DNA of 53,952 bases. It comes from an uncultured Commensalibacter sp. (lineage in GTDB: Bacteria; Pseudomonadota; Alphaproteobacteria; Acetobacterales; Acetobacteraceae). The translations under genes were made by a program, and so were the position numbers. This document shows positions 16,091 to 28,462 of the stretch, one piece after another. Positions within the stretch are counted from its first letter, which is position 1, and each line of letters opens with the position of its first letter. The notes beneath the pieces are model-generated. The model had not been told where the DNA came from. It did no database searches and saw only the letters and a program-made list of their open reading frames with translations. Where the stretch lies: assembly GCA_946699565.1 (NCBI GenBank), contig CAMPDW010000015.1:1-53952 (forward strand), given 5' to 3'.

Positions 16091-16555
16091 ATGATTGTTT
16101 TAATAGTTAATAAACAAAGAATAGAGCTAGAAGCGCCTGATGATATGCCTTTATTATGGGTATTAAGGGATTTAAGAGGATTAATTGGTACAAAATATGG
16201 GTGTGGTAAGGGGTTATGTGGGTCTTGTACTGTGCTTTTAGATGGAAAGGCTGTTCATTCTTGTATACTGCCCGTTGGGAGTATAGGTAAAAAAGAAATA
16301 ACAACTATTGAAGGTATCGGGGATGATCTAGTAGCACAAAAATTATTAGCTGCCTGGAAAGAAACAGAACCGACACAATGTGGATATTGTCAGCCAGGAC
16401 AAATAATGACGGCTTTGGCATTATTAAAAAACACTAATAAACCTAGTAAAAATGAGATAGTTCAAGTAATGACAGGTCATATTTGTCGATGTGGAACATA
16501 TCAACGTATTTATAAAGCCATTCAAATTGCAGCAGATATTATAGAAGATGAATAA
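16091..16555 (+). CDS. 2Fe-2S small subunit of molybdenum hydroxylase
   Basis: A 154-residue protein of the xanthine dehydrogenase/isoquinoline oxidoreductase small-subunit family. The N-terminal plant-type ferredoxin cluster uses Cys38, 43, 46 and 58 (CGCGKGLCGSC). The C-terminal helical cluster uses Cys97, 100, 132 and 134 (QCGYCQPGQ, HICRCG). It moves electrons from the molybdenum site in the partner subunit to a cytochrome c. There is no signal peptide, as normal for a protein carried by its Tat-exported partner. It overlaps the next gene by eight bases, so translation is coupled. This subunit looks intact even though its partner is broken. Confidence 0.92.
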   Translation: MIVLIVNKQRIELEAPDDMPLLWVLRDLRGLIGTKYGCGKGLCGSCTVLLDGKAVHSCILPVGSIGKKEITTIEGIGDDLVAQKLLAAWKETEPTQCGYCQPGQIMTALALLKNTNKPSKNEIVQVMTGHICRCGTYQRIYKAIQIAADIIEDE

Positions 16556-18704
16556 AAAGCTTTCACGTCGTATTTTTATAAGTAGTACGGGAGCATTGTT
16601 TTTTGGAATTGTTTTGCCAGTAAAAGGTAAAGTTCAAAAAAATCTATTGAAAGTTACTTTGAATCAATCTAGGCTTAAAAACGAAGTTGAACATTATCAA
16701 AATGCCTTCATTCAGATAGATGCAAATAATAATATTACTTTTCTTTTACCTAATATTGAAATAGGACAAGGTATTTCAACGGCCGCATCGATGATATTGG
16801 CGGAAGAATTGGATGTTGATATAAATCAGGTTTCAATTAAAATTTCACCGATTGAAATTGAACATCAAAAAAATTTTAATAATGATTTTTATATAACTTA
16901 TGGTTCTGGATCTATTGCTAAGGACTGGAAACCTTTAAGACAAGCTGCTGCTGTGTTAAGGATGATGTTTATTAAGGCAGCAGCTGAAATTTTCAATATT
17001 AATATTGATCAGTGTCATACTCAACAAGGTCAGGTTATTGGCTTTGATAATTAGATTGCAACTTATGGTGCGTTAATTTCAAAAGTTGCTATATTGGATA
17101 TTCCAACTTCAGCTCATTTTAAAAATAAATCAGATTATAAATTGATTGGAAAATCTCAACACAGGTTTGATACAGATGCAAAAATTAAAGGTAAAGAAAT
17201 TTATGGAATTGATGTTTATCTTCCACAGATGAAAACAGGTTATATTGTTGGCTCATCTTTTCATGATGATAAAATTCTTTATTTAGATGATTGTTTGACA
17301 CTACAAGTCCAAGGTGTTCATCAAGTATTAAAAAAAGAAAACATAATTTGTATTGTTGCTGACAATTATTGGACAGCATTACAGGGTGCAAAACAGCTTA
17401 TAATTAAATGGGAAAGTGATCGCAATTCAAGTATTAATACTGTTAAAATTTATCAAAATTTGAAAGATGCTATTAATAAATCATCTACAATTTTATATCA
17501 TAACAATAATTATTTGGTTCAGAATTCATTAAAAAAATCTAAAAAACATTATCATTGGAATTATTTACAACCAATGCTATTACATGCGGCGTTGGAACCA
17601 ATAAATTGCACAATATTTTTTCATGATAATCAATGTGAATTATGGATAGGTTCTCAAGCTCCTTTAAAGCTTAAGGAACAATTTGCTAATCAATTTCATC
17701 TTGATAAAAACAATATTATTTTACATTTTAATGCTATTGGTGGCAGTTTTGGACGTAGATTAGATCAGCAATATATTTTACAAGCTGCAGAATTTGCCAA
17801 ACATGTTTCACATCCTTTGAAATGTATGTGGTCTAGGGAGACGGATTTTCAAAGTGATACTTTGCGGCCTCCTTATTATGATCAAATAGATATTGGTGTT
17901 GATGATAAATATCATATTCAAGCTGTTCATCATAAAATGGTTACATTTGTTAGTAGTAAAAATAAAAACAATCCATTAAACCCTGATTATCTCCTAGGCT
18001 TAGATACAATGCCTTATCAAATTGAAAATTATCAATTTGAATATGTTGTTTGTGATGATTCTCAATTAACTTTTGGATTAAGTCAAGGCAGAGAGGCAAC
18101 GCGTAACATTTTTGTCTTGGAGAATTCAATAAATAGATTGGCTTTTCACGCACAAAAAGACCCAATTGATTATCGAATATCTTTCTTGTCTGATAATCGT
18201 GCAATAGCAGTTTTAAATCTACTTATTCAAAACCTTGAATGGGGTAAAATCAAATCAAAAAACATTCGGCAAGGTTTTGCTATGGCTCATATATTTGGAA
18301 GCCATATCGCAATGGTTATAGAAGCTGAAATTACGACAACTTTTATTATTCGTTTACACCGCGTTGATGTTGCTATTGATTGTGGTTTAATTATCAATCC
18401 TGATCAAGTGAGAGCACAGATTGAAAGTTCTGTTATCTTTGGATTAAGTGATGCTTTATATGGCGAGGTTCAAATTGAAAAAGGGCAAGTTCAGCAACGT
18501 AATTATAATCAATATCGAGTGTTAAGAATGAATGACATCCCGAAAATTAATATTCATTTTATTAAAAGTAATGAACCTCCATCCGCTGTTGGAGAATTAG
18601 GAACTGTTGTTGCCGCACCAGCATTAGCTCATGCTTTAGAGTTGATCCAAGGTAAATTTTTAGAATCTTTACCTTTAGCTAAACAAATATTTCAGCATAA
18701 ATAA
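16548..18704 (+). pseudogene. Molybdopterin-binding hydroxylase subunit, amber stop inside
   Basis: From ATG 16548 the frame runs 718 residues to 18704 with one TAG at 17052-17054 (between GFDN and IATYGAL). Both halves join in the same frame, so a single change (AAG or CAG to TAG) explains the break. The N-terminus has a Tat signal with SRRIFISSTG. EIGQGISTAASMILAEELD, IGGSFGRRLDQQ and the C-terminal GELGTVVAAPALAHAL follow the IorB/aldehyde oxidoreductase family, in which the last Glu is catalytic. In acetic acid bacteria such enzymes oxidise aldehydes or N-heterocycles in the periplasm. The first 168 residues alone would be inactive unless the codon is suppressed. Confidence 0.88.
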
Positions 18705-18713
18705 AGATTTTTT

Positions 18714-20006
18714 ATGATTCAATTTATTAACCATTTTTATCGTTTTACGAAGAAAAATTATTATCAATATCTTTTTTTAAGTCCTGTTTTTATGGGGCTT
18801 CAATTTTATGTTTTAATTAGCATGGCGGCTGATAAACAGGAACATTCAATGAATAAGGGGGAATATCTTTTTCATGCCTCTGGGTGTGAGTATTGTCATA
18901 CGGCTGATCAAGGTCAAAGATTGGCAGGGGGAAGACCTTTTTATATTTCCAGACAAGGAGTTGTTTATTCATCTAATATTACACCTGATGTCCAAACTGG
19001 GATTCAACGATATACCGATGATGAATTTGTAAGAGCCTTACAAAAAGGTATCGGTCATAAGGGTAAGCGTTTATATCCTGTAATGCCTTATACTGCTTAT
19101 CGTTCCATGAAGCGTGAAGATATTATAGCAATAAAACATTATCTTGATAAACAACCATCTATTAATCATAAGGTTCCTGATAAAAATATGGTTTTTCCTT
19201 ATAATATGCGTTGGGCTATACGTTTTTGGAATTTTATTAATTATACAGGTGAAAATTTTCAGGAAGACCCAAAAAAATCAAAGTTATGGAACAGAGGCAA
19301 ATTTTTAACAGAAGGTCCAGAACATTGTTCATATTGCCATACTCCTGTAAACTGGTCAAATGGTCGATCTATTATCATGGATTATTCAGGTGGAAGTTTT
19401 CAAGGGTGGACAGCTTATAATATTACTACAGATGAAGATACTGGTATTGGTGCATGGAGTGATATAGATTTGGAACAATATCTATCTAAAGGTTATGTTG
19501 CCGGTCATGGAGCTGTATCAGGTCCAATGGCTGAAATTGTTAATACAAGTCTATCTTATCTAACACTTAAAGATATTCATGCCATTGTGATTTATTTGCG
19601 TTCTTTGAGATCTGTGGAAAAGGAACAAGGTGCTGCAAAAATTTCTGTTAAAGAATTGGAAGTGGTCGAACCAAGTCATAGTCATGGAAGTCATTTATTT
19701 TCATCAGCCTGCACAAATTGTCATTTAGAAAATGGTGAGGGAAAACAAGGGGAATATGAAAGTTTATGGGGATCTAGAACGGCAACCGTAACGTGTGGTA
19801 ATAATTTAGTAAAAGTTATTTTGGAAGGTGCAACTATAAAAGATTCGCGACTGGGAAGTTTTGAAATGCCGTCTTTTAAAGACGGATATAATGACCAGGA
19901 TATTGCTGATATTGCAAATTATATTATCTCGCATTTTGGTGGACGAAATGGACATGTCACAGCTGAACAGGTAAAAATAGAACGGAATGCATTAGAGAAA
20001 AAGTAA
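18714..20006 (+). CDS. Triheme cytochrome c, electron acceptor subunit
   Basis: A 430-residue protein with an N-terminal hydrophobic segment (about 18-38) for export or anchoring and three heme-binding CxxCH sites: CEYCH near 58, CSYCH near 205 and CTNCH near 333. This is the domain plan of the cytochrome subunits of membrane-bound alcohol and aldehyde dehydrogenases in acetic acid bacteria, which pass electrons to ubiquinone or a terminal oxidase. It follows the molybdopterin subunit by nine bases, so it was the electron outlet of that enzyme. It remains intact and could serve other dehydrogenases. No intrinsic terminator is seen after it. Confidence 0.92.
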   Translation: MIQFINHFYRFTKKNYYQYLFLSPVFMGLQFYVLISMAADKQEHSMNKGEYLFHASGCEYCHTADQGQRLAGGRPFYISRQGVVYSSNITPDVQTGIQRYTDDEFVRALQKGIGHKGKRLYPVMPYTAYRSMKREDIIAIKHYLDKQPSINHKVPDKNMVFPYNMRWAIRFWNFINYTGENFQEDPKKSKLWNRGKFLTEGPEHCSYCHTPVNWSNGRSIIMDYSGGSFQGWTAYNITTDEDTGIGAWSDIDLEQYLSKGYVAGHGAVSGPMAEIVNTSLSYLTLKDIHAIVIYLRSLRSVEKEQGAAKISVKELEVVEPSHSHGSHLFSSACTNCHLENGEGKQGEYESLWGSRTATVTCGNNLVKVILEGATIKDSRLGSFEMPSFKDGYNDQDIADIANYIISHFGGRNGHVTAEQVKIERNALEKK

Positions 20007-20209
20007 GTTATATAATTCTGTTTGGGTGATGAGAAAATTGTTTAAATAAATTAATTAATAGATAAAAACAAAAAGACATAAAATAGTTATAATTAAATAA
20101 AGGGGAGTATAAAAGATTGTATCTAATCAATTAAAACTATTATTAATTTTCTTTTTGAATAAACTAAAAACTTTTAAAATCTTCTATAACTCTTATGAAG
20201 AAACATATA

Positions 20210-20940
20210 TTATACTGTTAGTCCACCATCAATAAAAAAATTCCTGACCCGTTACATATCTACTTTTTTTAGATAAAAAATATTCAATAAGGTAATAAAT
20301 TTCGATAGGATTATCAAATCTACGTAGGGATATGGATTTTAAAAGTTCCTTTTTTGATCGGCAAGAATGTCAGTCATATCAGTCTCAACAAATCCTGAAA
20401 GAATAGCATTAACCGTAATTTTGAATCGACTTAATTTTCGTGTTAATAATCGTTAAAATCCTAATAAGGCAGCTTTGCTAGACGAATAAATTGGTTTGTC
20501 CAATCATACCTTTGATTGTAGTTATAGAGAAAATAAAAACAATAGAACCACATTTTTTATTAATAAGGTTGGAAACTATATGATGAACCACTTCAAAAGC
20601 GCCATTTAAATTTGTATTTATCATGTCATACCAATTTTCTGGATTCATTTTTAAAAAATTTCATCATGTATAATACCGGTATTGCTTATAACTCCATAGA
20701 GATGGCTAAGATTTTTAATAAGGTTATTGCAAAGATCTTTCGTTAAGTTAAAATACTTAACATCATATTTTTAGCAATTACATTACCATATTCTGTCAAT
20801 TCATTGATTTTTTTAGATAAATCATGTTCTTTTTCATTTGAATATACATAGGTAAATACCACGTCATATTCATATGAAAGATTTTCAACCAAAGTCTTAC
20901 CAATTTTTCGACTGCTATCAGTAATTAAAATCTATTTATC
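20210..20940 (-). pseudogene. FabG-like ketoreductase (SDR), decayed
   Basis: The minus strand reads as a ketoacyl-ACP reductase with several frameshifts and stops. It opens with ILITDSSRKIG, a decayed form of the SDR cofactor motif TGxxxGIG. NTNLNGAFEVVHHI and GSIVFIFSITTIKGMIGQT follow, where the catalytic Ser and following Tyr region lie. A stop codon interrupts the sequence at the expected YxxxK site. Pieces resembling TVNAILSGFVETDMTD and the closing FIDGGL appear in other frames. It is the last gene of the fossil minus-strand cluster. FabG-type enzymes reduce beta-keto thioesters on a carrier protein. This copy cannot make a full protein. Confidence 0.8.
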
Positions 20941-20959
20941 TTTTTTTTATTTTCATCAC

Positions 20960-22449
20960 TCCATTTTGGAAAACATATGTCTAAAACAGATGGTTATTTC
21001 ATATCCACTGCCAGAAACCTTAATGGTTTATAAGGTTTAAGTTTTTGCAAAGTTTCAAAGGTATTTTTGAGTTATTGCCAGAAACAAGTAGCTATAACTA
21101 GATCCAGTTGTATTATTAGTATATTTTACATAGGTTCTAAGTGAAGCATCTTCAACATATTTGATTGCATTATAAATTTGTAGGAATTTTATTTAAACGA
21201 TTAAAAAGTATATTTTGAACTTGCAATTTTTTTTCTTTATATAATTGTGTTTTACGTTTTGACCAATGTTTAATTCTGTCAAGAATGTTAAGAACAATTA
21301 CTTTTCCATGTTTAGGTGCTAATAAATGATAATTCGTAATTTCAATAATGGATGATTCCCAATAAGCCTTTTCATTAATTATTTCATCATATGGGTTTGC
21401 CTTAGCAAGATCTTTATAATCTTTTGTTTTATCACTATTGGAAGGAAGAATAATTGTTTCCTTGATATTAAAGTCCGAGTTTTTTTAGAATTTTCAAATA
21501 ATACAATGTAAAATGTTGTTATTGAATTTGCAGGTTGTGGAAGAGTATTTGGTTTAAAGTTAATAAAGTTTTATTTTTGCTGATCAATTAACGATGCAAT
21601 ATATTTATGTGAAGTATTAAAGATATAATTTTTTGCTGTGTAAAAAACTTTGTAGATTTCTAATTTTTCGCATTTTATACCGTCAGGACTAAGATAAATT
21701 TTCTTGACTTCTTTGTTAACTTTGAAAGTTCCCCCTAATTTTTTGATTTTTTCACGGAGAAAATCAAAAATGTCTTGGAATCTATTGACTGGGTAAGCTG
21801 TTTCTACAAAAAAATAAGTATACCAAATGTGAAGAAAATATAAATAATTTATTTGCTCTAGAAAAGCTCCTATATAAATTGTGGGAATAGTAACTATTTT
21901 ATAGAACCAGTTATTTTTAATTTTTTTCCATTAATTTTTCATATATAATATAGTTTTAAGTTTTTTTGAACAAAAACGTAAACGTTTAAAATTAGGTTCA
22001 TGATTACTCATCATAACATAATGTTGCATATATGAATCATAATCATAAATTAATACACTAGGAAAAATCTTTTAATAATAAGATATCATTTTCATCATAA
22101 CATTTTTTATTTCTTGAAAAAGAGCATTTTGTTTATGATAAAAAAGATATGATTCTTATCTGTACATGCCATATAGAATATATGAGGAAAAACCATTCGT
22201 AGTTCAGATAACATTCTACATTTTTCAAGAACCTTTCGAAGATTTCCTTCTTTTCCCATCCCTGATAATTTATGTAGGATGACATCAAAGATAGATTTTT
22301 AGTTGGGTCTGACAAAACATGTTGAATATCCTCCATGCTATCTATGTTTCTCAAGAATAAGTATTTTTTTCTGGTCTTATTTTTAAAAGACTCAAAACAT
22401 AACTTAATACTGCTACTTCTGAGTCTATGCATATTAAATTAAAATCCAT
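20960..22449 (-). pseudogene. Phytoene-desaturase-like FAD oxidoreductase, decayed
   Basis: Minus-strand fragments in several frames follow the CrtI/RetSat-type FAD oxidoreductase order. The N-terminus from ATG 22449 reads MDFNLICIDSEVAVLSYVLS, in the place of the dinucleotide-binding GSGxxGL. A middle block reads AYPVNRFQDIFDFLREKI then KLGGTFKVNKEVKKIYL. Later blocks read NPYDEIINEKAYWESS and YVEDASLRTYVKYTNNTTGS, which is the usual region before the C-terminal FAD loop. At least six stops or frameshifts occur. The cofactor glycines are also mutated, so decay is old. Such enzymes desaturate or isomerise polyenes and saturate retinol-type bonds. Its place among carrier-protein genes suggests it acted on a polyene chain. 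Confidence 0.7.
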
Positions 22450-22469
22450 ATTTAAAAATAAATTCTTAA

Positions 22470-23370
22470 TTATTTGTACCATTCAACTTGTTCAGCAAAA
22501 CGAATAATATTAATTTTTTGATTATTTTAGGAATTTCTTATGTCTTGAAGAATTGTTTTAGCCCTATTATCAAAAGGTAATTTAAAATTTATTTTGGTAA
22601 ATCATTATTGTATGTCCTCATTGCAAGAAGAGCTTTGAGATTACCAGCAAAAATTTTTCTTATTACTTTTTTTATGCTTAGGAGCTGTGGTAAACTAGTT
22701 ATTAATAATTTTTCTACCAAACGTGATATGTTTTATTTTTTCTTTATGATGTTCAAAAAATATTTTTGTTATAACTGGTTCTACTTTAGGATCCTGCGTT
22801 GTAAAGATTGCATTTGATTCAGCTGTCTATTCCATTGTAAGAGTTATAAAGAACACCAACAACAGGATGAAGTTCTGGAAGTTTTTCCAATAAATTTGCA
22901 TAGCTTAATGAAGGTGCTGGCCAAATTTTTTTATTTGAAAGTGCAAGTCATTTTCTAAAAGTAAGCGTATAAACAATTTCTTTTTCGAAAAAATTATGAA
23001 ATTTTTATAAATTTTTTTCGGTAAGTCCAGTTCTATACCGATTAATAAAGCCTACATAAAGAGATGGAAGAAGTTGCTAAAGATAGATGAACATAGAAAA
23101 ATCTCGGGCAACTTTTGCCTATAAAAAATTCATGTTGTTGTTATTTATCCAACATGTCCCAATATTTTGTACCATATAACTATGCAATAATTATGCACAA
23201 TTTTCTTTTTTAGGGAGCATTTGTTTATTAATCTTAGTGTTATGATCAATTATGGAATTAAGTGTTAAGTTTTTCTCATTTGAAAGATTGATTAATTTTT
23301 CTACGGCTTTTGTATCAGATTGCATGAAATCAAAAACTCTATTGGCATTAATTTTAATTTGTTTTAGCAT
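22470..23370 (-). pseudogene. Unassigned decayed gene between ACP and oxidoreductase
   Basis: An ATG at 23370, seven bases after the acyl carrier protein stop, opens about 50 codons that include AVEKLINLSNEKNLTLNSI and then meet a stop. Further fragments in changing frames include LLPSLYVGFINRYRTGL, LLEKLPELHPVVGVLYNSY, FTTQDPKVEPVITKIFFEH and a final RFAEQVEWYK ending at TAA 22470-22472. The order and spacing show one former gene of about 300 codons. The first part faintly recalls condensation-type acyltransferases, where a helix is followed by a TLNDLL motif, but the rest does not fit well. I do not assign a function. Confidence 0.5.
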
Positions 23371-23377
23371 TGCAATT

Positions 23378-23611
23378 TTAATCTTTGTTATTTATATAAT
23401 TACACATTTCGATGAAAGTTGTTTTATCATTAAAAAAAGTGTTATTAAGCGATAAGTTATAATTTTTCTTTACAGTTACTTGCAATTCTACAAAATCAAG
23501 ACTGTCAAAATCGAAATCTTTTATTAAAGTATTTGGTTTGATGTCTTCAACTTCGATATCCTTAGTATTAGCAACGTTCTGAGTCATTTGAGTAAATGTA
23601 TTATTCGACAC
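23378..23611 (-). CDS. Acyl carrier protein of the fossil cluster
   Basis: A 77-residue frame from GTG 23611 to TAA 23378. DFDFDSLDFVELQV places the phosphopantetheine Ser at residue 37 at the start of helix 2, preceded by IEVEDIKPNTLI. Helix 3 and 4 are recognisable. It is the only gene of the cluster still fully open. It resembles carriers of polyketide-like and aryl-polyene-type systems rather than the housekeeping AcpP, whose loop reads DSLDTVELV. The usual neighbours KS and dehydratase lie upstream as pseudogenes. Whether it is still expressed is unknown. Survival of such a short gene by chance is possible. Confidence 0.8.
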   Translation of the reverse strand: MSNNTFTQMTQNVANTKDIEVEDIKPNTLIKDFDFDSLDFVELQVTVKKNYNLSLNNTFFNDKTTFIEMCNYINNKD

Positions 23612-23614
23612 GAT

Positions 23615-24370
23615 TTATTTCCATTTGAGCAGAATTGTTGATTTATTTGCAAGTAAAAAACGAGTTTTCACGATAGGACATAGCACTAAATTCTATAATT
23701 AATTCTGGTTATTATGAAAAACTACGATAGAATCATCTTTATGAATATAAATATCTTTAAATTCTTTAATTGATGATAGGTGAAACGCTCGTTTACTTAT
23801 ATTGATTTCATGGCTGATTTGGACAGTAAAACTGAGAGACATTAGATTATTTATATTATTCTAAAGTTTTAGTGTTCAGAAGATTTGATAGAAAAATCAA
23901 AAAACTTTTAGAATATGTTGTTTTAAATAATGCTCTAAATAAAAAGGCATCTAATATAGAACAATATTCATCTCTTTTATTCTTTGATAATATTCGATAA
24001 TTAGCAAAAAAATTCAAAACATGTATGTCATAGTCATTGGACCGGAATGATAAATATACTTTTTATGTTATTTTCAAACGTAAATAAAGAAAATTTACTG
24101 TTTATTGGATATTTTTTCCAAAAAAGATTACTTTCTTACTAACCGTAATTATTTCATAGTCTTTTTGAGGATAGATATAATCTCTGAAAGTTATTTTAAC
24201 AGAAAAGGATTGGTTGGATTTAATTTTATTGATATAGTTTCTAATATTCATTGCATCTAACATGCTATGAACAACAAGTTCATCCATAAAAAAGAGTTTT
24301 TTGAATATCAAAATTATAAGGATTATAATCCTCTGAAAAATTCGCTCAGGCTTTAATATCCTGTTGCGAA
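23615..24370 (-). pseudogene. MaoC-like (hotdog) dehydratase, decayed
   Basis: Right after the ketosynthase, minus-strand frames give NYSQQDIKA, a stop, then ANFSEDYNPYNFDIQKTLF. After a further shift comes VVHSMLDAMNIRNYI and then FSVKITFRDYIYPQKDYEI. This follows MaoC-family (R)-specific hydratases/dehydratases, which have A(L/F)SxDxNPxHxD, a downstream HGM and a hotdog strand (RxxYPGDxxE). The second catalytic His (HGM) reads HSM. Three or more breaks occur. A later piece includes IEFSAMSYRENSFF. Dehydration of 3-hydroxyacyl-ACP would be the expected role in polyene building. Confidence 0.65.
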
Positions 24371-24379
24371 TAGTTTAAA

Positions 24380-25560
24380 TTATATATCTAACTTTCTTAT
24401 GATAAGAGCAGAGTTTGAATCACCAAACCCAAATGAGAGGTTTAATGTCATATCAATGTCCTTATGAAGATGATTATTAGGTGTATAATTTAAATCACAT
24501 TTTGGATCAAGATCATTTAAATTAATCGTGACAGGAACAAAGAGATCTTTAACTGCACGCAAACAAATAATAGTTTCAAAAGATTTAGATGCAGCGATTA
24601 AATGTCTTATATAAGATTTAGTAATTGAAATAGATATGTTATAAGCTTGCTTACCAAAGACTTTTTTTTTAATTGTTTCTATTTTGTTTAAATCATTAAG
24701 TGGGGTAAATGTGCTACGTGCATTTATATAATATTGATAATCCTTTAAAAAATATTAGCTTCTTCTATTGCACGTGTAATTGATTGTGCGCATGCTTTAA
24801 GATCTTCTTCTACTGGTGCCGTGAAATCTTTGGCCTCAGAATAGTTTACACAACCAATAATCTCTCCAAGAATTTTCATGCCTCTACGTTTGACGTGTTT
24901 ATGTTTTTCAAAGAAAATTACGGCAGCACCTTCTAATAGAATAAATCCTGAATGTTTGAGATCAAAAGGACAACATGCATTTTCAGCGATATTTTTACTT
25001 TTTACTTAAAGCAGCAAGTATATCAGCATTTCAAATATTTGTGTTTGAAAGAAGAGATTCAGAGGCTCTCGCAAGTATCATTTTAGTACGTCCTTAGCGG
25101 ATTTTATGATAAGTTTCATCGATAGCTAAATTTTTGTTGTGTAAGCTTCAACCATTGTATTTTGGTAGCCACAAAAACTTCAAAATATGCTACAAGCCGC
25201 TGTTGTAACATTAGGCATGGTTTCAAGACTTCCAAAGGGATGTCCTATTCCATATTCTTTAAGTTGGTCATAAAACTTAAAACTTTCATCTAATCTACCT
25301 CATCTTGTATCGATAATAACGCAGCAATCAAATGGATTATGATGATTTTGTAAATTTCTTTCTGTGAAAACTTCATCAATTGCTTCCATCGCAGCAAGAA
25401 AGGCGTTTTTTGCAAATCTAGGCAAAGCTCTTCTAAGATTAATAGAAATTTTTTGAAATTTTTTTCATCTGTTTTTGATTTTTTATTCCATCCCATGTTT
25501 CTTTTATATTATTGCTCAATGATGTAATATAACCTTTGCTAGTTATATAACTCTGTTAAT
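24380..25560 (-). pseudogene. Beta-ketoacyl-ACP synthase (KS), decayed
   Basis: Minus-strand frames rebuild a FabF-type ketosynthase. They give ITSKGYITSLSNNIKETWDG, RFAKNAFLAAMEAIDEVF, a stop, and LDESFKFYDQLKEYGIGHPF with TMPNVTTAACSIF. The catalytic-Cys region reads MVEAYTT, with Tyr in the place expected for Cys. ASESLLSNTNI, AENACCPFDLKHSGFILLEG and INARSTFTPLND (normally INAHGTSTPLND) follow. The closing NLNDLDPKCDLNYTPNN and LNLSFGFGDSNSALI are well kept. Cys is replaced, the first His is replaced, and the second (GHLLGAAG) reads RHLIAASK. Several stops and frameshifts occur. It was the first gene of the cluster. Inactivity is certain from the broken frame. Confidence 0.88.
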
Positions 25561-25781
25561 ATTTATAATGAAAATCTTTCTATAAACAAAATTTGATTTA
25601 AATGAAATTTATGGATTTTTTTAGAGATATTATTTTTATTTTTTTTAATCATTAAAATAGTGTAAAATCGAATAAGAGATTTTAATTAAAAGATAAGAAA
25701 TCTTAATATTTCATTTTCGAAATAGAAAATTGGAAGACTATTTAACAAAGTTTTTTTGATAAATTTTTTTTATGTTGTAAA

Positions 25782-26942
25782 TTAAATTAATTTTAAAATT
25801 TCTTCGGCTGCTTCATATGAAGGTGGTTGATGATGAGGAGCTTGAAGAGCATTTATAATTTCACTAAATGCATTTTTTTGTGCTTGATTTTTTTGTGTAT
25901 TATGTAAAAAATCTAAAACAGTATTTGCTAATGTTTGAGGATTACAATTCTCTTGTAAAAGTTCAGGAACAATTTCCCTTTTAGCTAATAAATTTACCAT
26001 TGAGACAAAAGGTACCCGGATCATACGTCTGGCAATCATAGCGGTTAAAGGATTAAATTTGTAGGTCACGATCATTGGAATATTTGCTAAGGCTAGTTCT
26101 AAGTTCGTAGTTCCTGATTTTGTCAGGGCAATTTGGGATGCAGCATAAGCGTTATATTTATCTTGTCGTTTATGAATAATTATAGGTTTTATAGGCCAGT
26201 TATGAATAACTTGCTCAACATGATGTTTTACTAAAGGTGAAGTAGGCAACACTGCAATAAGGTCTGGCTTTTTCTTTTTTAATAAAATTAATGTGTTTTT
26301 AAAAACAGGCATTAGCTTCGGAAGTTCAGAACGACGGCTACCGGGCATTAAAAGTAAGATGGGTTGCACAGGTGATATATGATATTCAGATCTAAAATTA
26401 TTTGCATTTCCATGATGGACTTCAGTTTCAAGGATTGGATTGCCGACAAATTGGGCTTGTAATCCATGTTTAGAAAAAAAAGTTTTTTCAAATGGAAATA
26501 GACAAAGAAGTTTTTCCCATAAACCGGGAAATTTTTTTACCCTGTTTTCATGCCATGCCCAAACTTGTGGTGCGACATAATGTACTCTTGGTATTGAAAA
26601 ATTTCTAACTTTTTTTAATAATCGTAAAGAGAAACTTGGACTGTCAATTGTAACAATAATATTAGGGTGAATTTCTTTAATGTGGTTAACCGCTTGATGC
26701 AATCGTTTAGATAGCATCCATAATTTTGGCAGAACTTCAACCAATCCCATTACCGCTAGATCTTGCATTGGAAAAAGGATTTTCATTCCTTGTTCTTGCA
26801 TTCTGGGGCCACCAATACCATGAAATTTTAAATTAGGATTAAAATGGCGTAAAGCTTTTATTAATCTTGCTCCAAGTTCATCGCCACTGGTTTCTCCAGC
26901 TAAAAGCCAGATAATAGGTGATTTTTCAGATTTATTCATCAT
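25782..26942 (-). CDS. lpxB: Lipid-A-disaccharide synthase
   Basis: A 386-residue GT19 enzyme that joins UDP-2,3-diacylglucosamine and lipid X at the inner membrane in lipid A synthesis. Family blocks are GETSGDELGARLIKAL near 16-31, GIGGPRMQEQGM, MGLVEVLPKL, HYVAPQVWAWHENRV, FVGNPILE, LMPGSRRSEL and TKSGTTNLELALANIPM. Length is standard. The frame begins two codons ahead of MNKSEK at ATG 26942 or ATG 26939, both after purine-rich sequence. It follows hisI by three bases, so the two are co-transcribed. It is unrelated to his genes functionally. Confidence 0.96.
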   Translation of the reverse strand: MMNKSEKSPIIWLLAGETSGDELGARLIKALRHFNPNLKFHGIGGPRMQEQGMKILFPMQDLAVMGLVEVLPKLWMLSKRLHQAVNHIKEIHPNIIVTIDSPSFSLRLLKKVRNFSIPRVHYVAPQVWAWHENRVKKFPGLWEKLLCLFPFEKTFFSKHGLQAQFVGNPILETEVHHGNANNFRSEYHISPVQPILLLMPGSRRSELPKLMPVFKNTLILLKKKKPDLIAVLPTSPLVKHHVEQVIHNWPIKPIIIHKRQDKYNAYAASQIALTKSGTTNLELALANIPMIVTYKFNPLTAMIARRMIRVPFVSMVNLLAKREIVPELLQENCNPQTLANTVLDFLHNTQKNQAQKNAFSEIINALQAPHHQPPSYEAAEEILKLI

Positions 26943-26945
26943 ACT

Positions 26946-27350
26946 TTAAGAATTTTTAGTATATAATATTTTAGGGTCAACAAGAGGGGTATTTACTTCT
27001 TCAATTATACCCATTTTCCAAGTATTAAAAAAACAACTTTTACGTCCTGTATGACAGGCTACGCCTTTTTGGTCAACGAAAAGTAATAACGTGTCTCCAT
27101 CACAATCAAAAAGAAATTGTATTAATTTTTGAGTCTGACCAGAACTTTCCCCTTTACGCCATAATTTTTGACGGCTTCGAGAATAATAACAAACTTGGTT
27201 AAATGTAAGGGTTTCAATGATTGCATCACGGTTCATCCATGCCATCATAAGCACTTCTTTAGTATCATATTGTTGAGCAATTGCAGGAATTAACCCATCT
27301 TGGTTAAATTTTATTTTGGCAAACAGAATGTTCAGATTAAAATTATTCAT
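26946..27350 (-). CDS. hisI: Phosphoribosyl-AMP cyclohydrolase
   Basis: A 134-residue cytosolic enzyme for the third step of histidine synthesis, opening the adenine ring of PR-AMP. Zinc ligands are probably Cys83, Cys99 and Cys106, with metal-binding Asp82, 84 and 86, seen in FDCDGDTLLLF and ACHTGRKSCF. The SRSRQKLWRKGESSGQ block contacts phosphate and ribose. There is no fused HisE pyrophosphohydrolase domain. It lies apart from other his genes and shares a unit with lpxB. The start at ATG 27350 fits the family. The 176-base divergent region upstream separates it from the glycosyltransferase gene. Confidence 0.95.
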   Translation of the reverse strand: MNNFNLNILFAKIKFNQDGLIPAIAQQYDTKEVLMMAWMNRDAIIETLTFNQVCYYSRSRQKLWRKGESSGQTQKLIQFLFDCDGDTLLLFVDQKGVACHTGRKSCFFNTWKMGIIEEVNTPLVDPKILYTKNS

Positions 27351-27526
27351 TATCTATATTTCAGTTGTTATAGAATCATATTTTTTACAATACAATTTGG
27401 AAAATAAGGTTTCTAGCTTTATTTATAAAATAATAATTTAAATAAAAAGGTGTTTGAATTTAATTATTTTTAATTATACGTTGATGCGTTAATAACTATT
27501 TATTCAATAAATAAGAACAGAATTAT

Positions 27527-28462
27527 ATGAGGACTTCTTCAATTAAAAAAATTCTATTTATTACGTCCACGCGATTAGGTGATGCCGTAATTTCAACAGG
27601 GTTACTTGACTATTTTTTGAAAACTTGTCCTGAAGCTAGATTTACGATAGCGTGTGGACCTATTGCTGCGAGTTTGTTTGATTCAATGCCAAGACGTGAT
27701 GAAACCTTGATTGTAAATAAATATCGTTTTGATTTTCACTGGCTTGTATTATGGGCAGAATGTGTAAAACAATCTTGGGATTTGGTGATTGATCTTCGTG
27801 GTTCTGGTTTAAGTTATTTTTTACGATCAAAGAAAAAAGTGGTTGTCAGGGGAGGAAGAATAAAAGAACATCGTGTTCAATATCTGGCTAAATCTTTGTC
27901 CTTACCTTATACGCCTTTACCTGTAATGTGGATAGAAGAAAAAGAGAAACAAAATGCTGCAAAAATATTACCAGATCATCATTATATAGCTTTGGCACCT
28001 ACTGCAAATTGGGTGGGAAAGATTTGGTCTATAAAACGTTTTATACAAGTTGCTGAAAAATTGCTGAAATTGGATCAAAAAAATAAATTTGTTCTTTTTT
28101 ACGGACCTGAAGAACAAGAAAAACGTATTGTAGAACCCTTGATAAAAGCAGGTTTGCCAATTATTGACTGTGGGGGTCACAATCAATTAACCGAAGTTGC
28201 TGCCTTATTATCACGTTGTAAAGGGTTTATAGGGAATGATTCAGGTTTGATGCATTTGGCAACCGCTTGTCAGATACCAGTCTTGGGTTTATTTGGACCA
28301 AGCAAATTATCGGAATATGCTCCTGCTGGTAAATATGCTCAAGGTTTGACAGCTTTAGGTAAAAATGAAACAGCTAGTATGGAAGATTTAACAGTCGAGG
28401 AAGTTTATGACGCTTTTGAAAATCTGTTAAAACGTTGGAAGCAAGATCATCATAATGGATAG
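27527..28462 (+). CDS. GT9-family heptosyltransferase-like glycosyltransferase
   Basis: A 311-residue member of the GT9 (ADP-heptose:LPS heptosyltransferase) family. FITSTRLGDAVISTGLLDYF lies at the N-terminus, LVIDLRGSGLSYF near 86, a central FVLFYGPEEQEK, and the donor-site block GNDSGLMHLATACQIPV with LFGPSK near 245. It should add heptose or a related sugar to core lipopolysaccharide at the cytoplasmic face of the inner membrane. It leads a plus-strand set with a GT4 enzyme and an asparagine synthase-like gene. The exact sugar cannot be told from sequence alone. ATG 27527 is the only reasonable start. Confidence 0.85.
   Translation: MRTSSIKKILFITSTRLGDAVISTGLLDYFLKTCPEARFTIACGPIAASLFDSMPRRDETLIVNKYRFDFHWLVLWAECVKQSWDLVIDLRGSGLSYFLRSKKKVVVRGGRIKEHRVQYLAKSLSLPYTPLPVMWIEEKEKQNAAKILPDHHYIALAPTANWVGKIWSIKRFIQVAEKLLKLDQKNKFVLFYGPEEQEKRIVEPLIKAGLPIIDCGGHNQLTEVAALLSRCKGFIGNDSGLMHLATACQIPVLGLFGPSKLSEYAPAGKYAQGLTALGKNETASMEDLTVEEVYDAFENLLKRWKQDHHNG

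Follow-up and report, generated by a model that had tools for sequence, protein, structure and literature searches.

A decayed operon between the cytochrome c and lpxB genes

The stretch of DNA considered here (the window; 53,952 nucleotides of contig CAMPDW010000015.1, assembly GCA_946699565.1) belongs to an uncultured Commensalibacter sp. of the family Acetobacteraceae, and between its convergent cytochrome c and lpxB genes, both of which are open, it harbors the wreck of a carrier-bound chain-building operon, which spans positions 20028 to 25566 of the minus strand and comprises seven decayed genes whose order has been kept. A first-pass annotation, made from the sequence letters, had read six former genes here, namely those of a ketosynthase (KS), a MaoC-like dehydratase, an acyl carrier protein (ACP), an unassigned product, a phytoene-desaturase-like flavin adenine dinucleotide (FAD) oxidoreductase, and a FabG-like ketoreductase. 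Alignment to the intact operon of a Commensalibacter metagenome-assembled genome (MAG), designated G001, recovered all six on the minus strand, in that order and close to the limits first proposed, and the reading of the region as a fossil chain-building operon is borne out by the match of gene content and order to relatives. The description requires amendment in that only five of the six are decayed, the ACP gene being an unbroken, open frame of 77 codons, and in that a seventh gene, the remnant of a DUF3995 membrane-protein gene, lies outside the proposed limits.

In the direction of transcription, the operon begins with a FabF-type KS pseudogene (24383 to 25566), recognized by frameshift-aware alignment, tblastn, and motif read-out, followed by the MaoC/hot-dog dehydratase pseudogene (23618 to 24378; alignment and tblastn) and the ACP gene (23378 to 23611), which has a GTG start and was assigned through its frame, its PF00550 match, and its motif. 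These are followed by the pseudogenes of a putative AurF-family diiron oxygenase (22461 to 23367), the gene left unassigned in the first-pass annotation, and of a CrtI/phytoene-desaturase-like FAD oxidoreductase (20959 to 22449), both placed by tblastn and alignment and the former also by the PF11583 match of its intact relative. The last two positions are occupied by a FabG-like short-chain dehydrogenase/reductase (SDR) pseudogene (20213 to 20946), for which an adh_short match on one fragment was available in addition to alignment and tblastn, and by the C-terminal half only of the DUF3995 gene (20028 to 20208), identified by tblastn, alignment, and the PF13160 match of its intact relative (1.3e-10).

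Pfam scans of 10 fragments returned, in the expected order, Ketoacyl-synt_C (2.2e-8), the phosphopantetheine site PF00550 (1.5e-6), and adh_short (1e-9), the other seven fragments giving nothing better than 0.02 and no sign of a dehydratase or an FAD family; as these scans were silent on most genes, the remaining identities were taken from relatives. When the G001 proteins were searched against the whole window with tblastn, each fell on the minus strand at its expected place, with E values of 2.5e-113 to 8e-28 for the first six genes (KS, 2.5e-113; FAD oxidoreductase, 2.5e-99; diiron oxygenase, 1.5e-48 and 7e-38) and 1.2e-9 for the DUF3995 gene.

Decay was measured by frameshift-aware alignment with 14 queries, seven from G001 and seven from a second relative, Acetobacteraceae bacterium ESL0709 (G449), each controlled by the opposite strand and three mononucleotide shuffles. 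Scores ranged from 147 to 1388 with the G001 proteins and from 78 to 1190 with those of G449, as opposed to 30 to 52 in the controls; the fragments, therefore, neither derive from unrelated genes nor match at background level, the two outcomes against which the first-pass annotation had cautioned. Relative to G001, the KS (score 1170, 64% identity) carries 5 in-frame stops and 6 frameshift steps, the dehydratase (557, 52%) 2 and 7, the diiron oxygenase (aligned over 22473 to 23367; 805, 60%) 6 and 7, the FAD oxidoreductase (1388, 58%) 3 and 11, the ketoreductase (730, 61%) 2 and 5, and the DUF3995 remnant (147, with controls of 40 to 52) one of each, amounting to 19 stops and 37 steps. The ACP, aligned over 23381 to 23611 (254, 58%), has neither and is the sole open gene.

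Catalytic motifs have been eroded as well. In the fossil KS, a Tyr stands at the nucleophilic Cys and an Arg at the first catalytic His, the second His being retained; because the KS lacks its catalytic Cys, no product can be formed by the operon in the present genome. Three of the seven putative ligands of the diiron protein are gone (E83, H131, and E208) and four are retained, neither glycine of the GxG motif survives in the FAD protein, and the ketoreductase has kept its Tyr-Lys motif with an altered glycine-rich motif, while the DSL phosphopantetheine motif of the ACP is retained. It could be argued from the many frameshift steps (37) that an intact operon merely reads as broken through an assembly or sequencing artefact, but the 19 in-frame stops, the truncated seventh gene, the open flanking genes, the replaced KS cysteine, and the missing residues for diiron and nucleotide binding render this exceedingly improbable.

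The ratio of substitutions at codon positions 1 and 2 (mean) to those at position 3 is 0.37 to 0.55 between the fossil and G001 and 0.28 to 0.62, in six genes, between G001 and G449; since codon periodicity is thus still visible, much of the divergence seems older than the decay. Selection keeping the ACP was considered and is not supported, as aligned residues identical in G001 and G449 were kept at 34 of 47 positions in the ACP and at 729 of 1022 in the other six proteins (Fisher p = 1.0). Nor was its open frame accepted as a sign of selection, given that 56 events in 5246 bp lead to an expectation of 2.5 in 231 bp and, by hand arithmetic, to a probability of about 0.085 for none. The G+C content of the cluster is 26.6%, compared to 33.8% for the rest of the window, an AT-richness as expected of decaying DNA. 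A second broken gene lies near the cluster, where a molybdopterin aldehyde-dehydrogenase-type large subunit (judged by eye) is split over two plus-strand frames (16548 to 17054 and 17094 to 18704), its counterpart in G005 being a single frame of 721 amino acids (L096:895-3060).

Copies in relatives and the site of insertion

The intact operon of G001 (L011), reached through a 60%-identical relative of the ACP fragment, encodes a KS of 415 amino acids, a MaoC-like dehydratase of 253, an ACP of 77, a diiron protein of 306, an FAD oxidoreductase of 500, a ketoreductase of 247, and a membrane protein of 110. Its first six genes are tightly packed, the KS and dehydratase frames overlapping by 4 bases and the others lying within 5 bases of one another, and the Cys-His-His residues of its KS are retained. 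Near this operon, overlapping minus-strand ABC transporter frames (L011:1099-3537, by eye) suggest a frameshifted transporter in G001, and adjoining it on the plus strand is a 63-residue peptide with a double-glycine-type leader (L011:5581-5772; ELTTTEVKDIAGG).

All seven genes recur in identical order in ESL0709, which is among the stingless-bee gut isolates reported in PMC10128065, so that a related cluster of like content and order, as anticipated by the first-pass annotation, exists in two relatives, intact in G001 and with a shortened KS in ESL0709. The match of the latter KS (L016:7624-8661, plus strand) begins at residue 54 of the G001 protein, residues 1 to 53 being absent, and a search of 1 kb revealed no remnant of the N terminus, so that the ESL0709 copy may be decaying too. 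With the diiron protein as a marker, matches were obtained in 2 of 9 genus genomes, 3 of 299 family genomes, and 1 of 385 genomes of the class sample, the last being the window's own; as the samples were drawn evenly from larger groups, these frequencies are estimates.

As judged by flanking frames, the three copies of the operon occupy three different chromosomal places. Among eight other genus genomes, the cytochrome c/lpxB junction is empty in three (18 bp separate the genes in G005 as well as in G008, and in G001 they overlap by 4 bp) and is filled by other genes in two (about 6.4 kb in G006 and about 3.6 kb in G007), whereas in G002, G003, and G004 the best cytochrome c and lpxB matches are far apart. 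The intact syntenic cluster between these two genes that the first-pass annotation had envisaged in relatives was found in none of the eight and was rejected. No convincing flanking direct repeats were found at the insertion, the pairs detected being AT-rich and 78 to 94% identical, and no tRNA gene was found at the site or in the stretches scanned from five relatives. A pseudogenized operon was either inserted between the cytochrome c and lpxB genes of a Commensalibacter or retained there while relatives lost it; the distribution fits separate acquisition by individual lineages as well as loss in most lineages. From the contents of L047 and L048 (G006 and G007), genes may turn over at this junction, and the G006 cytochrome c protein carries a long DQKPS repeat close to its N terminus.

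Protein families and the proposed pathway

Family assignments were made with the KS (P0001), diiron protein (P0004), FAD protein (P0005), and ketoreductase (P0006) of an intact relative as queries. The KS scored 407.3 bits against the TIGR03150 equivalog (FabF, KASII), below the cut-off of 493.75, and 405.7 bits against the broader NF005589 subfamily, above the cut-off of 387, and is accordingly KASII-like in a wide sense; being only 39 to 40% identical to the FabF-like proteins of G000, G001, G005, and G449, it is not a recent copy of a housekeeping FabF. The ketoreductase exceeded the cut-off for the 3-oxoacyl-ACP reductase FabG model NF009466 (237.1 bits versus 222), and, within the matches considered (the best 25 of 40 for the KS and the best 25 of 234 for the ketoreductase), neither these two proteins nor the FAD protein or the ACP reached an NCBIfam equivalog cut-off. 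The intact dehydratase gave 17.4 bits with FAS1_DH_region, for which the cut-off is 22.

The diiron protein is matched by the Pfam AurF family PF11583 (53.1 bits, cut-off 29.6; 3.4e-14), and its ligand set, which we take to be E, E-x2-H, E, and H-x3-E-x2-H, occupies seven columns that are invariant in all six homologues. Its best sequence match in the PDB had an E value of 0.14, and the hits of a profile, which began at E 0.012, were aldehyde decarbonylases and R2-like oxidases. The solved AurF and CmlI arylamine oxygenases are only 11 to 13% identical to it and work in an arylamine pathway, whereas the present protein belongs to a fatty-acid-like operon. The FAD protein scored 39.8 bits against TIGR02734 (the CrtI phytoene desaturase family; cut-off 238.1) and fell under every NCBIfam cut-off among the matches listed, the best being CrtD, carotenoid isomerase, and CrtI models; in the PDB it had no sequence match at 0.01, while its profile found the gamma-carotene desaturase 4rep (7e-14) and 4dgk (5e-10). 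Phytoene-desaturase-like is a fair label for its superfamily, though not for its function.

On this basis, we consider it likely that the operon, where intact, specifies a compact line resembling a type II fatty acid synthase (FAS) or polyketide synthase (PKS), which would build a carrier-bound polyene iteratively and then oxidize it. The KS, presumably a homodimer because Cys-His-His is kept in G001 and no chain-length factor (CLF) is encoded, would extend an ACP-bound chain with malonyl-ACP drawn from housekeeping metabolism, the SDR would reduce each beta-keto group, and the MaoC-like protein would then dehydrate the product. As the operon has no enoyl reductase, the chain would stay unsaturated, a logic also described for aryl polyene (APE) synthesis in the available text of PMC8358021. 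The CrtI-like FAD enzyme and the AurF-type diiron oxygenase would afterwards desaturate, isomerize, or oxygenate the chain, in whichever order and on whichever intermediates, and the DUF3995 protein may act at a membrane step; the pigment or modified lipid suggested by the first-pass annotation would be a conceivable product. In overall gene content, the operon appears to resemble a highly reducing type II PKS or a specialized FAS. A catalogue of type II PKS clusters was, as far as its available text states, built from KS-CLF sequences, and the operon is consequently not expected in its list. No cluster combining a KS, AurF, and a phytoene-desaturase-like protein was found in the open-licence literature searched, and the combination would appear to match none of the product pathways described there.

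A relic of an APE or xanthomonadin-type cluster would likewise contain KS, ketoreductase, dehydratase, and ACP genes and be expected to yield conjugated double bonds. Against PRK09185, a model which we take to cover the APE ketosynthases, P0001 scored only 194.8 bits (cut-off 407), and the operon of both G001 and G449 has one KS, no CLF, and one ACP in addition to the AurF and CrtI-like genes. APE clusters, by contrast, are described as having two ACPs and, besides a KS-CLF pair, a further KS (PMC8358021), and although Acetobacteraceae are reported to possess APE clusters (PMC8776678), the departure in gene content, which the first-pass annotation had rightly remarked upon, largely refutes such an origin and leaves it very unlikely. 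A ladderane-like pathway might also be considered, since the candidate FAS-type clusters of anammox bacteria combine FabF, FabG, and FabZ with phytoene-desaturase-like proteins (PMC2649909, PMC4790861), a set comparable to the operon by the enzyme types described. Those candidates, however, also contain radical SAM enzymes, for which none of the seven operon genes gave a Pfam or NCBIfam match, and a diiron oxygenase would imply an oxygen-dependent step, unlike in anammox; this origin is regarded as highly improbable.

More distant homologues of the FAD and diiron proteins are neighbors in Photobacterium sp. GJ3, two gammaproteobacterial MAGs, and Arcicella aurantiaca (L018, L021, L022, and L023), within larger clusters whose identities to the operon are 28 to 29% (FAD), 24 to 29% (diiron), 39 to 44% (ketoreductase), and 30 to 33% (KS). 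A DUF3995 gene is close to two of these (L021 and L018), as in the operon, but the larger clusters additionally encode an AMP ligase, two KASIII-type proteins, a third unassigned protein, SCP2, a metallo-beta-lactamase-fold protein, a KS-like protein at the CLF position, and a FabA-type dehydratase, and their KS falls in another clade. The pairing is known from loci found by searching with one of its two members, and a scan of named genomes with the FAD alignment gave 5 loci from 38 pattern matches, the pattern step limiting its reach. The FAD family is weak as a specific marker of the operon, since matches at E ≤ 1e-15 were obtained in 16 of the 398 genomes of the phylum sample, one of which is that of the window. 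Three other loci were set aside as not representing it: that of G766, whose diiron match is a distant AurF in a different cluster; that of Agrobacterium vitis (L017), whose AurF-type genes are without the other operon genes; and that of G995, where the KS, ACP, and ketoreductase further on resemble, by eye, a housekeeping fab set. In G995, the genome of another proteobacterium, a 43%-identical AurF-type protein (L057:9435-10367, minus strand) lies beside a relative of AMP ligases (E 8e-23) and, by eye, an enoyl-CoA hydratase, and its AurF branch may act on acyl thioesters.

Several observations weigh against the proposed polyene pathway. The operon encodes no priming ligase, thioesterase, acyltransferase, or exporter; no member has a known product or assay; and the one copy that is intact throughout stems from an assembled metagenome (G001), the KS of the cultured relative being shortened and no intact copy having been seen in an isolate. 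The intact dehydratase reached 20.2 bits with the MaoC family PF01575 (cut-off 27), the diiron profile retrieved no AurF or CmlI chain from the PDB at E ≤ 1, and the structure model of the FAD protein, whose best fold match was 4rep (E 2.2e-20), is weak (mean pLDDT 66). Furthermore, an AurF gene accompanied the FAD gene in 1 of 19 loci (L060 to L078; flanks of only about 1.5 kb on each side), namely the window's own L075, and the AurF-type genes of L017, L057, and L058 have no adjacent FAD homologue; the two genes, then, need not belong together.

Related modules on plasmids and the nature of the cluster

A KS of the operon's clade was found in 34 plasmid records at 46.7 to 57.5% identity (E ≤ 1e-95), from Serratia (17), Escherichia (10), Salmonella (2), Vibrio (2), Chimaeribacter (1), Enterobacter (1), and Kosakonia (1), and in a looser search, among the best 60 of 146 records, the next relatives reached at most 41%. 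In a tree of 16 sequences, the two Acetobacteraceae KSs and five plasmid KSs grouped with support of 100/100, apart from five housekeeping FabF proteins and the four KSs of the larger clusters, with a program warning of meeting long branches. As the clade search covered plasmids and not chromosomes, a plasmid origin is a possibility only.

The modules of Chimaeribacter p353 and Serratia marcescens pE41 share the operon's order of KS, dehydratase, ACP, and SDR, with likeness (respectively) that is weak for the dehydratase (E 2e-12 and 1.5e-5, the latter over 26 residues), E 4e-9 and 4e-14 for the ACP, and 45% and 37% identity for the SDR. In Escherichia coli p0A3_5 the same order is given by annotation only, the Enterobacter cancerogenus stretch has a KS, a dehydratase-like stretch, and an ACP with no SDR match after it, and in Kosakonia the ACP precedes the KS, unlike in the operon. 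The KS stands with ACP and SDR genes at four loci (L091, L092, L094, and L095), three of which adjoin exporter genes; in Chimaeribacter and E. coli the KS is preceded by an exporter of the C39-peptidase type, and in pE41 by a MacB-type pair. The Acetobacteraceae operon, unlike several of these modules, has no exporter. In searches of 72,556 plasmid records, enterobacterial plasmids yielded neither an AurF homologue (E ≤ 1e-4) nor one of the FAD protein (E ≤ 1e-10). The operon looks, as far as homology and gene order indicate, like a mosaic in which two redox genes were placed between the ACP and reductase genes of a plasmid-type module.

The open-licence literature searched yielded no product for the plasmid KS modules. 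Pantoea cluster 675, which comprises KS, ACP, SDR, and efflux genes, was considered as a relative and kept only as an analogue, as its KS could not be placed in the operon's clade; disruption of that KS is reported to have abolished inhibition of eight strains and to have left inhibition of E. coli C31C4 and HB101 intact (PMC7744662). The pE41 module is preceded by a 53-residue peptide with a GG-type leader (L092:4302-4463).

These neighborhoods raise the alternative that the acyl chain is destined for a peptide, the KS module supplying the donor with which some small secreted peptide is acylated, and its plasmid relatives next to C39-peptidase exporters might do likewise. This is a reading to which the C39-type (Chimaeribacter and E. 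coli) and MacB-type (pE41) associations of KS-ACP-SDR modules and the leader peptides of pE41 (53 residues) and of the G001 surroundings (63 residues) lend some weight. A loose leader-motif scan of positions 17000 to 28000 was, however, empty (it was run without a control and failed to detect the pE41 peptide, known from an annotated gene), the same scan of the ESL0709 stretch gave four frames only, none with leader character, and the G001 peptide may be unrelated; we therefore consider peptide acylation quite improbable. A further alternative is that the operon supplies the membrane with a specialized fatty acid, in the form of an unusual acyl chain on lipid A or phospholipid, rather than making a secreted or pigment metabolite. 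The DUF3995 membrane protein as the seventh gene in both G001 and G449, the FAS-like enzyme set, and the missing exporter are in keeping with this, but the lpxB neighborhood is particular to the present copy, the other two lying elsewhere, no acyltransferase is encoded, and several of the nearest KS relatives adjoin exporters on plasmids, so that a membrane fatty acid is viewed as unlikely.

Returning to the polyene pathway, it is tentatively proposed that the fossil stands for a family of compact natural-product clusters, not described before, in the Acetobacteraceae of insect guts, in which a plasmid-type KS-dehydratase-ACP-reductase module joined to an AurF oxygenase and a CrtI-like flavoenzyme may make an oxygenated polyene, perhaps membrane bound or peptide attached, and which two or more bee-gut lineages may be in the course of losing. 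The type of cluster to which the fossil points is compact and without a curated name; in it, a carrier-bound chain builder is combined with a putative diiron oxygenase and a carotenoid-desaturase-like enzyme, and its chemistry is testable, as the operon is held by a cultured stingless-bee isolate, ESL0709, and by a Commensalibacter MAG. It also links a chromosomal operon of insect symbionts to KS modules that E. coli, Serratia, and other bacteria carry on plasmids, and exemplifies the loss of a metabolite from a symbiont with a small genome.

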